Positions 54,627 to 64,000 of a stretch of DNA of 64,000 bases are shown here, in pieces (position 1 is the stretch's first letter; each line of letters starts with the position of its first letter). The position numbers and the translations under genes were made by a program. A model generated the notes under the pieces. It did not search any database and was not told where the DNA came from. It saw only the letters and a list, made by a program, of their open reading frames with translations. The DNA is from Paenibacillus timonensis (GTDB lineage Bacteria; Bacillota; Bacilli; Paenibacillales; Paenibacillaceae): assembly GCF_009725205.1 (NCBI RefSeq), contig NZ_WNZY01000026.1:1-64000 (forward strand), given 5' to 3'.

Positions 54627-54640
54627 TCTTCAAGATTTGG

Positions 54641-54676
54641 AAGGCTCTCAACCGTTAGGGTTGGGGGCCTTTTTCA
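54641..54676 (+). terminator. rplM-rpsI terminator
   Basis: AAGGCTCTCAACC pairs with GGTTGGGGGCCTT, followed by Ts. Confidence 0.87.
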
Positions 54677-54706
54677 TACATAAGAATTGGTTTGTTTTAT
54701 TTAAGC

Positions 54707-54737
54707 AAAAAGGATAAGGGCGTACCTTATCCTTTTT
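54707..54737 (+). terminator. Second terminator-like hairpin
   Basis: AAAAGGATAAGG / CCTTATCCTTTT, perfect 12-bp stem with a 6-base loop and a T-rich 3' side. It insulates the collagen gene from the ribosomal operon. Confidence 0.82.
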
Positions 54738-54859
54738 TATTTTTGCTTCAACCCGTTGATTAAAGTATTGAGCGACAAAAACGAAGGAGTAACTAAATTG
54801 GGTTTTTAGGAATATATTTGGGTTGACGGCATTTTCACTCATAAAGGGGAGTATATCCT

Positions 54860-57262
<2,403 letters not shown>

Positions 57263-57280
57263 AACACATGGAGGAAGATC

Positions 57281-58366
57281 ATGTCAACGATCAGTCTTTG
57301 TATGATTGTAAAAAATGAAGGGGCCTATCTAGAAAGGTGCTTAACATCCGCAGCATCTGTCGTTGATGAGATCATCATCGCAGATACTGGATCTACCGAT
57401 GAGACGAGGGAAATCGCAAAATCATTTCATGCACGCATCACGGATTTTCAATGGATCGATGACTTCTCTGCCGCGAGGAATTTTGCATTTGCTCAAGCCA
57501 CGAAGGATTATATCCTGTGGCTTGATGCAGATGACGTTTTGCTGGAAGAAGACCTGGAGAAGTTAGCAAAGCTGAAAAAAGAGCTGAATGACACCATCGA
57601 TTCCGTAACCATGTTCTACCATTATGCCTTCGATGAGTTTGGAAATGTAACTACAAGTCTAAGAAGAAACCGGCTGGTCAAACGGAGCCGGCAATTTCAA
57701 TGGATGGGCCCAGTGCACGAATACCTTGATGTAAAGGGCAACATCATTCACTCGGATATCGTGGTAACCCATACGCGAAAGCATGCTCATACAGGGCGTA
57801 ATCTGACCATTTTTGACAAGCGGTTTGCGGGGGGAGAAACATTCTCTCCTCGCGACCTGTATTATTACGGAAATGAATTGATGGACAACCGTCATTATGA
57901 AAAAGCAGCCGAAATATATGAAACCTTCATGGCAGGACGAAATGGCTGGGTGGAAGATATTCTTTCCGCCTGCTATCGGTTAAGTGAGATTTATACGCTG
58001 CAAAATCAGGATGAGAAAGCGTTCAGGGCAGCGATCTTTTCCTTTGATTATGATTCGCCAAGAGCAGAGCTGTGCTGCAGGCTGGGTTTGCTTTTTTTAA
58101 AGCAGCAACAATGGGAACAGGCGGCTTATTGGTTTATGCTGGCTGCCGAAATGGAAAAACCGGCAGACCACTTGGGATTTATTCAGGAGGCTTGCTGGAC
58201 GTGGTTCCCGCACCTCCAGCTATGTATTTGCTATTATCATCTCGGCGACTTTATACAATCACACAAGCATAATGAGCTGGCCAGAAAGTATAGACCCGAC
58301 GACCTTCATGTCCTTCACAACAAGAAACTGCTGGAAGGAATATTGCGATCCGAGGTGAGTTTATGA
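57281..58366 (+). CDS. Family 2 glycosyltransferase with C-terminal TPR module
   Basis: A 361-residue predicted cytoplasmic enzyme. The GT-A domain (1-190) has TISLCMIVKNEGAYLERCL, ADTGSTDETREIA and the metal-binding DADD (about 86-89). The C-terminal part (about 195-355) is TPR-like, with the motif ACWTWFPHLQLCICYYHLGDF. This module is clearly homologous to the middle of the next protein. SunS-type and many capsule/exosporium enzymes look alike. It starts 18 bases after the collagen gene (GGAGGAAGATC site) and overlaps the next gene (ATGA). Proposed substrate: the collagen Thr residues or the first sugar on them. Confidence 0.88.
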   Translation: MSTISLCMIVKNEGAYLERCLTSAASVVDEIIIADTGSTDETREIAKSFHARITDFQWIDDFSAARNFAFAQATKDYILWLDADDVLLEEDLEKLAKLKKELNDTIDSVTMFYHYAFDEFGNVTTSLRRNRLVKRSRQFQWMGPVHEYLDVKGNIIHSDIVVTHTRKHAHTGRNLTIFDKRFAGGETFSPRDLYYYGNELMDNRHYEKAAEIYETFMAGRNGWVEDILSACYRLSEIYTLQNQDEKAFRAAIFSFDYDSPRAELCCRLGLLFLKQQQWEQAAYWFMLAAEMEKPADHLGFIQEACWTWFPHLQLCICYYHLGDFIQSHKHNELARKYRPDDLHVLHNKKLLEGILRSEVSL

Positions 58367-60627
58367 AAATTGTTCATGTTGCTCCCGATTTCTATCCAGT
58401 TCCTCCGCAATATTATGGCGGAATTGAGCGGATGATCCATTCGCTCATCGAAGAAAGTGTGAGAAGAGGGCATGAGGTTTATTTGTATGCGAGGGAGGGG
58501 AGCGAGACTAGCGCAAGCCTGATTCCTTACCACCATCCGGCGGGCAATCCGGATCTCATCGCCGACTATGTTCTACATACGCTTCCCGATGGGATCGACA
58601 TCATCCATGACCACACCCATCATTCAGTGATTGGAAGGAAACGCCTTTCCGTTCCGACCGTATGCACCATCCATGATAGTTTGAATAACGAGATTGAGCA
58701 TCCAGTTTATGTTAGTCAACGTGCGCTCGAAGTGATCGGGAATAACCATGGGTACTACGTATATAACGGCATCGATGTGGAGGAATATCCGGTTCAGCAT
58801 AAGAAGGAGGACTATTTGCTGTTTCTTGGGGTATTAAGTCAGCATAAAGGCATCCATCATGCGCTCGACCTGGCCGAAAAAACAAAGCAGCGCATGATCA
58901 TTGCAGGTCCAGTGTTTCATCACGACTATTTCCGAACCGATATCGAGCCTCGCATCCAAGCGATGTCTCATGTTGAATTTGTGGGTGAGGTCGGAGGAGA
59001 AGAACGGCTGAAACTTCTCCAGCAAGCCCGATGTCTATTGTTTCCTACTTCATGGGAAGAGCCCTTTGGATTAGTTATGGTTGAAGCGATGGCTTGCGGT
59101 ACGCCGGTCATTGCTCTTGGGAATGGAGCCGTTCCTGAGGTTCTCCATTCCTATCCGGAGTTCATCTGCCGATCTGCGGAGGAGATGCGTGAAAAACTGG
59201 GTCGTCTCCATTACCATTCGGATGCATTAAGGAAATATGTCGCCGATCATTTTTCGGTAAAGCAGATGGCTGATGGTTATTTCGATGTGTATGAACAGGC
59301 GATCAGGCGGGGGGAGGAACTCGGAGAAACAACCGATTGGATTCAAAAAGGGGAAGAGCTAAAAAAAAGAATGCGCTATGAAGAAGCGATTGAACTGTAT
59401 GAAGGCATCCTCATGTCGTCTACCACGTCTAAAGAAGATAAAATTGCCGCCTGCAATGAAGCGGCAGACGTCTATTACCGTCAGGCAAACAAGGATAAAG
59501 AAAGAGAATACGCATTCCGCTCATTTCTTTATGCCCCGCCCAGGGCCGAAATCTGTTGCCGATTGGGTTATCAATTTCTGCAGCTGAACCGGCTGGAACA
59601 AGCTATATTTTGGTATAAGGAAGCCACCAAAGCAAAACGACCGGAAGTAGAAACTGTATTATATTATGAGGCATGCTGGACATGGCTGCCGCATATTCAG
59701 CTTTGTATTTGTTACTACCAGCTGGGAGACTATAAAAGTGCTTATGAGCATAATGAACAGGCGATGCGGTATGAGCCGCATAACGAGTATGGTTTGAATA
59801 ATAAGAAAACGCTTGATGAGCTGCTTGGGAAATCGTCTGCACCTGCTATGACCTTGAATGAAGTCACCTTATTGGATGTGGATGGCAAGCCGTTCAAGAT
59901 GCTATTGCAAACGCCGGGATTCATTGAAGAGATGATTATCCAGAAGGGGAATTGGGAGCCGCATCTTGCTCCTATGCTCAGGTCTTTTATTAAGAAAGAC
60001 AACTTGTTCTTGGATATAGGTGCGAATATTGGCTATCATTCCCTCCATGTGGCCAGCCTTTGCAGAGATGCGCGATGTATTAGCTTTGAACCTCACCCTT
60101 CCATCTATCAGCAGTTATCCGCAAATGTATCGCTAAATCCTTTTGACAACATTGAGATATATCCCTTGGCTGTGGGGGAAACGCCAGGCCAAACCCGTTT
60201 TTTTATGCAAAAGGAGGATAGCTACAACCGGGGAATGTCCGCGGTAGAATATTACGATGGACTCGGTGGGGAGTATTCAGAGATCGAAGTAACGATGACC
60301 TCCCTGGATTCCTTTTTGGACGAAGAGAACAAGAAAAAAGTCAGTGTGATTAAAATAGATACGCAAGGCAACGAGTATCAAGTATTAAAAGGCGCCAGCA
60401 GCGTAATCAACGAATCGAAACCTCTTATAGCGCTGGAAGATCATAATAACGCCAAACATTCCATTGAGGATATATTAAAGCTACTCGAAGGTTATGCAGC
60501 CTATAAAGTGAATCTCTGGGACGGAAGGGTAACGGAATATAGGAATGAACTGGATCAGTTTCAGGATGATTATTTGTTGATCCCAGTGCATCTGGTCAAG
60601 CGATTTTTGGCCGAGAGAGCAGAGTAA
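58363..60627 (+). CDS. Three-part fusion: GT4 glycosyltransferase, TPR module, FkbM methyltransferase
   Basis: A 754-residue protein in three parts. Residues 1-320: GT-B fold, family 4 type (VAPDFYPVPPQYYGGIERM; TSWEEPFGLVMVEAMACGTPVIA). About 325-490: TPR module with YYEACWTWLPHIQLCICYYQLGDY, a relative of the one in the preceding gene. About 505-754: FkbM-type methyltransferase with SAM motif LFLDIGANIGYHSLHV and VIKIDTQGNEYQVLKGA. The start ATG overlaps the previous stop (ATGA). It could add a sugar and O-methylate it, as BclA glycans carry methylated sugars; this is inference. No signal peptide. Confidence 0.88.
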   Translation: MKIVHVAPDFYPVPPQYYGGIERMIHSLIEESVRRGHEVYLYAREGSETSASLIPYHHPAGNPDLIADYVLHTLPDGIDIIHDHTHHSVIGRKRLSVPTVCTIHDSLNNEIEHPVYVSQRALEVIGNNHGYYVYNGIDVEEYPVQHKKEDYLLFLGVLSQHKGIHHALDLAEKTKQRMIIAGPVFHHDYFRTDIEPRIQAMSHVEFVGEVGGEERLKLLQQARCLLFPTSWEEPFGLVMVEAMACGTPVIALGNGAVPEVLHSYPEFICRSAEEMREKLGRLHYHSDALRKYVADHFSVKQMADGYFDVYEQAIRRGEELGETTDWIQKGEELKKRMRYEEAIELYEGILMSSTTSKEDKIAACNEAADVYYRQANKDKEREYAFRSFLYAPPRAEICCRLGYQFLQLNRLEQAIFWYKEATKAKRPEVETVLYYEACWTWLPHIQLCICYYQLGDYKSAYEHNEQAMRYEPHNEYGLNNKKTLDELLGKSSAPAMTLNEVTLLDVDGKPFKMLLQTPGFIEEMIIQKGNWEPHLAPMLRSFIKKDNLFLDIGANIGYHSLHVASLCRDARCISFEPHPSIYQQLSANVSLNPFDNIEIYPLAVGETPGQTRFFMQKEDSYNRGMSAVEYYDGLGGEYSEIEVTMTSLDSFLDEENKKKVSVIKIDTQGNEYQVLKGASSVINESKPLIALEDHNNAKHSIEDILKLLEGYAAYKVNLWDGRVTEYRNELDQFQDDYLLIPVHLVKRFLAERAE

Positions 60628-60722
60628 AACAATGCTACTATGTGCAATAATTCACATACATTACCTGCCAACCATGCTACCATCTTCTTGGAAATGACAA
60701 CAAGATAGTGGGGGTAATTATT

Positions 60723-61616
60723 TTGAAGAAAAGCATGACAATCGTTGGGACAGTCCTTATTCTTGCCCTGGCATTAACGGCGTGCGGAGGAAATAACAAA
60801 GAAGCCGCTAATAATGCAACGACAAGCAACAATGGCTCGAATAACGCCGCTGCGACAACGAATAACTCGGCGGCCACCGGTACGTATCAAGATGGTACGT
60901 ACAAAGGGATCTATGACCGCAAGGACGTCCGGAATTGGACGGCGTATGTCGAGGTGACGGTGAAGGACGGCAAGATCGAGAAGGCTTACTACGATTATAC
61001 GAATGAAAACGGCGATTTGCGCACCAACGACGAGAACTACACGAGTGCATTTAAAGCGGCTAATAAAATGACACCGCGGGAAGCTTTCGATCAACTCGGA
61101 GGTAAACTGGTTGAGGTTCAAGATGCAGCGAAGGTAGATGCCGTGACAGGTGCTACGCACTCTTCCAGAAACTTCAACGAGCTGGCTGCTGCCGCTTTGG
61201 AACATGCCAAGACGGGTGATACCAGTGATGCGATCGTTAATCTGTACGAAGATGGCACCTACAAGGTTGAGGCCGATGCGTTTGACGACCATGGCTGGAA
61301 ACCGCAGCTAGAGCTGACCATCAAGGACCACAAGGTCGATTCCGTTGCTTTTGACTACGTGAATGAGGAAGGCAAGCTGAAAACCGAAGACGCAGATTAT
61401 AAAGCCGCTATGGAACCTAAATCGGGAACCTATCCAGCGAAATACACCGAAGAGCTTGAGAAACAACTTGTCGATAAGCAATTGATCGGCGACGTTGACG
61501 CCATTGCTGGAGCAACTACATCCTCCAATAACTTTTCTGCGCTTGTAGAATACGCATTGGACGACATGGCCGAAGTCGGCGATACGGATTTAAAAGCGAT
61601 CAAGATCGAAGAATAA
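60723..61616 (+). CDS. Lipoprotein with two FMN-binding repeats (PplA-like)
   Basis: A 297-residue secreted lipoprotein. Signal peptide 1-20 ends in the lipobox LTAC (C21). A Asn/Ser/Thr linker (about 24-52) leads to two FMN_bind repeats. Each begins with a DGTYK segment (57-61 and 177-181) and ends in a flavinylation-like site: VTGATHSS (T145) and IAGATTSS (T265). In Listeria PplA such Thr residues carry FMN and pass electrons outside the cell. TTG 60723 follows GTGGGGGTAATTAT. No apbE (flavin transferase) is in the window. A terminator follows. Confidence 0.88.
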   Translation: MKKSMTIVGTVLILALALTACGGNNKEAANNATTSNNGSNNAAATTNNSAATGTYQDGTYKGIYDRKDVRNWTAYVEVTVKDGKIEKAYYDYTNENGDLRTNDENYTSAFKAANKMTPREAFDQLGGKLVEVQDAAKVDAVTGATHSSRNFNELAAAALEHAKTGDTSDAIVNLYEDGTYKVEADAFDDHGWKPQLELTIKDHKVDSVAFDYVNEEGKLKTEDADYKAAMEPKSGTYPAKYTEELEKQLVDKQLIGDVDAIAGATTSSNNFSALVEYALDDMAEVGDTDLKAIKIEE

Positions 61617-63797: not shown

Positions 63798-64000
63798 ATG
63801 CGCGATCGAGATAAGGTGACGTTATGGATTTCCCTGAACCACATCAAAATAGCGCTGATCGGCGTCGGCCTTGCTGCCATGATCCTCGGGATGGCTTTCT
63901 ACCACGTGCCGTCGCAGAAAGCATGGAATTACTGGAGTCTGCCGTTGGCGGGTCAGATTATCGCTCTGGATGCGGGCCACGGCGGGCCGGACGGCGGAGC
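63798..64000 (+). CDS. cwlD: N-acetylmuramoyl-L-alanine amidase CwlD (5' part, cut by window edge)
   Basis: Only the first 67 codons are visible. The start MRDRDKVTLWISLNHIKIAL is followed by a membrane anchor (about 14-36, IALIGVGLAAMILGMAF) and the catalytic zinc site of amidase_3, IIALDAGHGGPDGGA (about 53-67). CwlD makes muramic lactam in the spore cortex. AGGAGAAAGGTGG precedes the ATG. Its place after rpsI is known in Bacillus, so the genes in between mark an insertion. Confidence 0.88.
   Translation, partial: MRDRDKVTLWISLNHIKIALIGVGLAAMILGMAFYHVPSQKAWNYWSLPLAGQIIALDAGHGGPDGG

Follow-up and report, generated by a model that had tools for sequence, protein, structure and literature searches.

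The window analysed here, a 64,000-nucleotide stretch of Paenibacillus timonensis DNA (contig NZ_WNZY01000026.1, positions 1 to 64,000), carries three genes on the + strand that encode a collagen-like protein (gene 1, 54860-57262), a GT2-type glycosyltransferase (GT) followed by TPR repeats (GT2-TPR; gene 2, 57281-58366) and a fusion of a GT4 domain, a second TPR module and an FkbM-type methyltransferase domain (GT4-TPR-FkbM; gene 3, 58363-60627). Our reading, held with a probability of about 0.7, is that these genes form a portable operon for the synthesis and decoration of a collagen-like filament of the surface, in all likelihood that of the spore. The comparative evidence that they would form a dedicated collagen-glycosylation unit is strong. 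Open reading frames (ORFs) of the window were read directly, and families were assigned through Pfam and NCBIfam scans of the window proteins. Gene 2 starts 18 bases past the collagen stop codon and gene 3 overlaps gene 2 by 4 bases, so that the ORF coordinates bear out the spacing given by a first-pass annotation made from the sequence alone.

The three genes recur together in the same arrangement. A search of 196 genomes of the family with gene 3, scoring up to five candidates per genome, recovered the complete fusion in at least five, including the window's own genome, P. nanensis (G111), P. soyae (G166), P. terrigena (G008) and G062, whose cassette was read across the record start. Two further fusion genomes, P. 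contaminans and P. pinisoli, came from the named collection. All seven genomes found with the fusion place the collagen, GT2-TPR and fusion genes in this order on one strand, and the window's neighbours (rpsI and a pplA-like gene) were not seen in the other six stretches. Layouts that lack FkbM are also found: Clostridium drakei has collagen, GT2-TPR and GT4-TPR genes in a row, two metagenome-assembled genomes of Clostridia have collagen, GT2-TPR, GT4 and GT4, and the corresponding genes in Rossellomorea and Bacillus lie on both strands. Among 290 plasmid records that matched gene 3, none matched more than 80% of it in one place, so that the search yielded no copy of the fusion on a plasmid.

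Comparison with close relatives suggests that the unit was acquired at this site. We ranked 39 other genomes of the genus by the PplA-like protein encoded downstream and fetched the nearest eight regions (93-76% identical). None of the eight regions has a collagen run or contains the three-gene unit, and in seven of them rpsI and the pplA-like gene are separated by only ~150-295 bp. Homology to nearer relatives ends at about 54632 and resumes at about 60637-60641, which gives the islet an approximate extent of 54632..60636 (+); beyond ~54632 the alignment to nearer relatives is weak and patchy. Because the unit is absent from all eight relatives and flank homology resumes, about 6.0 kb with just three genes would have been gained here, and the alternative, loss in all fetched relatives, is less simple. 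A portable operon carried by a compact insert would be the best explanation of the three genes. In the eighth relative (L269, 8141-9864), the gap between rpsI and the pplA-like gene holds ~1.7 kb of other sequence with ORFs that by eye resemble a WYL-type regulator and a VOC-like protein, and the site may for this reason be a gene-gain spot. The first-pass annotation had described the locus as a minimal, dedicated factory. The dedicated part is supported by the triad in all seven fusion genomes, the absence of the islet from the relatives and the class of gene 2, and the minimal part holds only in part, as no sugar-nucleotide supply gene lies within the three-gene unit.

The linkage to collagen extends beyond the fusion cassettes to the clade of gene 2. 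Since collagens are present in 178 of the 196 family genomes, a control based on position was needed. In 100 GT2-TPR regions chosen from at least about 155 rows (the majority of the upper rows and some of the others), a collagen ORF lies within 3 kb of the GT2-TPR gene in 53, within 7 kb in 55 and nowhere in the stretch fetched in 45; the ORFs taken as collagens include some whose G-x-y runs are no more than short. On a FastTree tree of 140 GT2-TPR rows with local supports, which includes loci found by cassette search and thus favours collagen-linked rows, 23 changes suffice to explain which rows have a collagen within 3 kb, and shuffled labels require 46 on average (0/500 as low). The clade that contains gene 2 (local support 100) has a collagen within 3 kb in 64/86 rows, compared with 7/39 in the other ingroup rows, which form sister lineages (Fisher p 4e-9, rows not independent); 15 distant rows, six of them collagen-linked, stand outside this comparison. 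A control of 39 loci from the gene-3 search (L073-L111) gives collagens in 16/22 loci with a GT2-TPR gene and in 0/17 without, and in three of the six collagen-less GT2-TPR loci (L080, L082 and L083) the contig ends a short distance from that gene. Several BclA_C-tipped proteins likewise adjoin GT2-TPR genes (G043 C1 160463 / 160940 and G097 C2 282197 / 282648, coordinates by eye). The first-pass annotation would have been contradicted by glycosyltransferases that occur mostly without the collagen gene. The opposite is found for the fusion and for the clade of gene 2; in the wider GT2-TPR family, collagen is often absent, as the sister lineages illustrate.

We further note that the fusion cassettes differ from other linked loci in the composition of the stalk. 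GPT makes up 0.22-0.38 of the triplets in the seven fusion cassettes, and the median for the 64 other linked collagens is 0.035 (Mann-Whitney p 2.7e-4; the cassettes are related and not independent, and four of the others exceed 0.38, reaching up to 0.74).

Gene 2 (361 aa, 57281..58366, +) encodes an SgtA/GmaR-class enzyme with a Glycos_transf_2 match at residues 5-143 and a TPR_2 match, and its TPR module spans residues 191-361 (57851..58363, +; Pfam and profile match). The first-pass annotation of this gene as a glycosyltransferase is confirmed by these matches. Its GT2 part contains the stretch WLDADD, which we take to be the DxD motif. Among solved structures, GmaR (E 2.2e-27, profile 3.7e-39) and SunS (E 2.1e-14) are its best relatives; in NCBIfam, the SunS family (peptide S-glycosyltransferases) is matched below its cut-off. 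Judged by its sequence, gene 2 falls in a class that includes known O-GlcNAc transferases of proteins. The N-terminus MSTISLCMI resembles MITISLCMI, the translation of the SgtA forward primer (PMC7157674), a comparison that does not extend to the full SgtA sequence.

Gene 3 encodes more than the second of the two glycosyltransferases that the first-pass annotation had counted. Its 754-aa product (58363..60627, +; Pfam, NCBIfam and AlphaFold2) joins a GT4 domain (residues 1-318, 58363..59316, +; PF00534 and PF13692 over cut-off), a TPR module (~residues 326-487, 59338..59823, +) and an FkbM-type methyltransferase domain (residues 549-709, 60007..60489, +). The AlphaFold2 model (mean pLDDT 77) divides in the same manner into alpha/beta (~1-317), helical (~326-487) and alpha/beta (~497-752) parts, whose mutual placement is unsure because the pTM is 0.44. 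The GT4 part has a GT-B fold with Tll1591 as the best Foldseek match (TMt 0.80, E 1.5e-20) and contains EPFGLVMVE, presumably the E-x7-E motif. Its closest solved relatives are the alpha-1,2-glucosyltransferase Tll1591 and AviGT4, and the titles of their structures (alpha-glucan; avilamycin A) point to acceptors that are sugars, as would be expected of a glycan extension step. The FkbM domain matches TIGR01444 (118.7 bits, cut-off 37.7) and PF05050 (78.7, cut-off 22.7), and carries DIGANIG at residue 551, which we assume to be the SAM (S-adenosylmethionine) motif. This motif is invariant in the four aligned fusions, and the remaining three also show a match to the FkbM region. The domain would fit glycan O-methylation, and the methyl-capped glycan of the first-pass annotation is plausible. 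An ungapped alignment of 159 residues gives 42% identity between the TPR modules of gene 2 and gene 3. In a tree of 138 TPR modules (a quick tree with long branches), the 13 GT4-borne modules form one group (SH-aLRT 91), which suggests that a single fusion of the TPR to GT4 probably took place and that the fused module has since stayed next to the type from which it came.

The product of gene 1 (800 aa, 54860..57262, +; PF01391 E 1.9e-72) has the three parts that the first-pass annotation had described: a basic head without a signal peptide, a GPT-rich stalk and a C-terminal domain. The head (residues 1-105, 54860..55174, +) holds 30 K/R versus 6 D/E and contains no hydrophobic signal-like stretch, the highest mean Kyte-Doolittle hydropathy over 19 residues being 0.59. 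The G-x-y stalk (residues 108-639, 55181..56776, +) consists of 175 in-register triplets in six runs, 53 of them GPT, with threonine at Y in 77 and at X in none. The GPT repeats are not mere DNA slippage, because they are encoded by several synonymous codon sets. NCBIfam names on the stalk are those of adhesins such as Lcl and Scl, below their cut-offs. The C-terminal tip domain (56771..57259, +) is all-beta in a low-confidence AlphaFold2 model (mean pLDDT 64), and generic jelly-rolls of viruses make up most of its matches in Foldseek (best E 4.3e-3) and VIA (best Z 7.3); we call the modelled tip all-beta only, without assigning a class. No BclA entry appears among the best 50 rows of Foldseek and of VIA, which is not evidence against a BclA-like fold.

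Separate searches with head and tip, as the first-pass annotation had advised, gave different outcomes at E<=0.001 among the 195 other family genomes: the head has no match, and the tip is matched in ten, seven of them near full-length at 46-55% identity. The heads of the fusion-cassette collagens are basic by charge count, and none of them matches the window head. The window tip is shared with G062 and P. contaminans, and P. nanensis and P. soyae share another tip (by eye). Basic heads, defined by a net-charge rule, occur in 19/99 collagens. A head motif resembling G-x-L-F-L-D...F-N-G-x-x-W was dropped, as it occurs in 1/99 collagens, the window's own. A general role of basic heads as spore anchors is not shown either: heads are basic in 3/4 readable DUF4183-tipped collagens and in 1/5 readable BclA_C-tipped ones, the latter set having 18/23 members that ran off the locus end. 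In several heads (L058, L161, L182, L196 and L198) the residues C-P-P-P-K-I stand just ahead of the stalk and may serve as a motif for crosslinking or anchoring.

The pairing of genes 1 and 2 is of a known kind, represented by SgtA and BclA3 of C. difficile. SgtA, a 358-aa enzyme with a GT domain and four TPRs that is encoded next to bclA3, moves GlcNAc from UDP-GlcNAc to threonines of collagen-repeat peptides, and its authors, in the parts of the report drawn on here, never found an activity that extends the BclA3 glycan (PMC7157674). Both systems place a ~360-aa GT and TPR enzyme beside a GPT-repeat collagen-like protein (a spore protein in C. difficile), a likeness of build and neighbourhood. 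However, sgtA lies upstream of bclA3, whereas gene 2 lies downstream of the collagen gene and is followed by GT4-TPR-FkbM. The text of a 2026 phylogenomic paper on C. difficile BclA does not mention sgtA. Listeria GmaR similarly has a GT2-type domain followed by TPRs and gives GlcNAc to a filament protein; flagellin receives the GlcNAc from its GT domain, and substrate recognition is attributed to the TPR in a proposal by the authors, in the parts of the report used (PMC9638930). GmaR differs in its length (637 aa), its antirepressor domain and its flagellin substrate.

A second comparison is provided by plasmid pBM500 of B. megaterium (NC_014025; L419 2424-11641), where bclA1 and bclA2 occur with two methyltransferase and two glycosyltransferase genes and the GT2-TPR enzyme encoded beside bclA1 is 52% identical to gene 2. 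BclA1 has been proposed as the nap protein, and a GFP fusion of its N-terminal domain, which has no BclA motif, localises to the forespore, according to the sections consulted (PMC4674009); the word stem 'glycosyl' is absent from the text of that paper. The two loci have in common a collagen-like protein (in pBM500 a spore protein with no BclA targeting motif) with GXT repeats, a GT2-TPR enzyme, a second GT and a methyltransferase component, which in pBM500 consists of two genes. Unlike the present unit, the pBM500 locus is plasmid-borne, its GT2-TPR gene is divergent to bclA1, its second GT is of GT2 type without a TPR match and its methyltransferases are separate non-FkbM genes. The glycosylation genes of BclA itself also differ from those of this unit. 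BclA of B. anthracis and B. cereus resembles the predicted product of gene 1 in being a collagen-like surface glycoprotein (PMC11952670, in part), but the Pfam and NCBIfam scans of gene 1 gave no match to a BclA tip or leader family.

These comparisons suggest the following mechanism. Expression would take place in the mother cell, where the 800-aa chains would form a triple-helical stalk, the basic head would dock on the spore surface and the beta tip would point outward. Gene 2 would put the first sugar, probably GlcNAc as in its class, on the Y-position threonines of the GPT-rich stalk; judging from its domains, the GT4 part of gene 3 would then add the next sugar and the FkbM part would O-methylate the glycan. 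The related TPRs of both enzymes would dock on the stalk and so direct the reactions to one substrate, a step favoured by the higher GPT share in fusion cassettes. More tentatively, and with somewhat less than even confidence, the shared TPR may be a collagen-docking module of a portable O-glycosylation code, in which one enzyme starts and the second extends and methylates. Units of this type would pass from one spore former to another, and large genomes of viruses, probably phages, would hold their counterparts.

With regard to location, the spore is likely. The window genome has six matches to the SASP family, and a sigma-K-like pattern is commoner upstream of collagen ORFs (11/94) than of control ORFs (30/1249; Fisher p 6e-5), although the 94 collagens include six added loci without a GT2-TPR row, the source of at least two of the 11 cases, and start codons were guessed mechanically. 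At the family level only sigma-K points to sporulation, because a sigma-E pattern is found in 0/94 collagens versus 24/1249 controls and a sigma-A pattern in 1/94 versus 32/1249. An unlikely though serious alternative is that the unit acts on the vegetative cell surface or in the extracellular matrix, the protein being glycosylated in the cytoplasm and leaving by lysis or an unrecognised route. The lack of a visible sporulation promoter at the locus, the adhesin names on the stalk and the long heads of some BclA_C-tipped family proteins, which by eye are unlike spore leaders, would be consistent with this. However, the head has no signal-like stretch, the linked family includes pBM500 bclA1, whose product was seen at the forespore, and the sigma-K-like enrichment, with the reservation just given, also favours the spore. 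It is far less probable still that the enzymes modify another target, such as flagellin or a wall polymer, and stand beside the collagen gene by chance. Gene 2 shares its class with the flagellin-modifying GmaR and has a sub-threshold SunS-family match, but a collagen gene lies directly upstream on the same strand in all seven fusion genomes found, six of which lack the window's rpsI and pplA-like neighbours in the stretches read, and both the clade-wide linkage and the higher GPT share in fusion cassettes argue for collagen as the substrate. Similarly, we doubt that the FkbM domain is inactive or methylates something else and leaves the glycan without a methyl group. FkbM substrates vary, and a sequence search gave no solved relative of the domain, but the conservation of DIGANIG across the fusions speaks against this possibility.

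Several observations weigh against a dedicated filament unit on the spore. The sequence of the head marks it as a basic orphan, the Pfam scan of gene 1 gives no match to the BclA_C tip (PF18573) at E<=0.001, and the Pfam and NCBIfam scans give no match to an exosporium-leader family, the presence of a leader model in these libraries being unchecked. Neither exact sigma-K and sigma-E consensus patterns nor a sigma-70-type site on the + strand occurs upstream of this operon, and the sigma-E count among the family collagens is zero, as given above. In P. terrigena the cassette collagen ORF (L056 11625-12347) is only 240 aa long, with few repeats and no tip, through decay or a collapsed repeat assembly. 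Within the clade of gene 2, 22/86 rows have no collagen within 3 kb, and the wider GT2-TPR family also occurs away from collagen genes. The median share of threonine at Y is 0.43 for fusion cassettes and 0.74 for other linked collagens, a difference that counts against a simple 'more sites' explanation of the high GPT share. That gene 2 may be an SgtA orthologue is suggested by its build, its neighbourhood and the primer-encoded N-terminus. Finally, the fluorescence of the pBM500 BclA1 fusion disappeared as spores matured, and a null mutant of bclA1 could not be made, as stated in the sections consulted (PMC4674009).

The window genome contains two further collagen genes over the Pfam cut-off (L063 3912-4937 on contig C71 and L064 4814-5947 on contig C21), both with K/R/H-rich heads. 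One of their tips is a weak BclA_C match (34.7 bits versus a cut-off of 38) and the other is DUF4183, a type of tip also borne by F-Anchor, the protein through which appendages of the spore are tied to its exosporium (PMC11952670, in part). A second DUF4183 ORF lies at C21 9265-9471, which makes an F-ENA-like appendage locus possible there.

Related gene pairs also occur in viral sequences. In large IMG/VR contigs (L353 1-9817, L355 1-10462 and L342/L344/L345 from 6001), collagen-like ORFs of up to 1943 aa within the stretch examined lie beside GT2-TPR genes. In L353 and L355 a ~780-aa GT4-GT2-GT4 protein follows; L355 also has a Methyltransf_24 gene, and a neighbouring gene in L353 weakly matches a tail-fibre-network/virion protein. 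Overall, a collagen ORF is present in 16/80 viral loci, a count in which near-copies are separate entries. In phage records, gene 2 gave 15 matches, all but one below 60% identity, the exception being a 22% fragment.

On the side facing rpsI, the unit is preceded by a terminator-like inverted repeat with a 13-bp stem (54707..54737, +), a consensus match only; the window contains five such sites versus a shuffled mean of 6.7. Directly downstream lies the gene for a PplA-like FMN-binding lipoprotein (60708-61616), whose product resembles PplA, an extracellular electron transfer flavoprotein, at 218 bits (below the cut-off of 325). In our reading it is followed by putative cysH and sat genes and then by a cwlD frame that starts only near 63799, the names cysH, sat and cwlD being read from the sequence without a family model. 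The placement of the unit between rpsI and cwlD by the first-pass annotation is thus accurate for rpsI and loose for cwlD.

Keyword searches of the open-access literature listed no published report of this triad. Beyond the known SgtA-BclA3 pairing, what is new here is the three-domain enzyme, which would extend the glycan, and the packaging as a compact insert. GT4-TPR-FkbM, with its related TPR, is a candidate class for the BclA3 glycan extender that the SgtA authors did not find, and the production of glycosylated collagen-like materials could benefit from so compact a pair of enzymes for GPT repeats. A 2022 review states, in the part used, that bacterial collagen is in most cases not glycosylated and that 48.3% of Y positions in Gram-positive bacteria are threonine (PMC8968730). 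Given the linkage of SgtA-class enzymes with collagen genes, O-glycosylation of threonines in bacterial collagen is likely to be widespread in Paenibacillaceae and to occur beyond this family.

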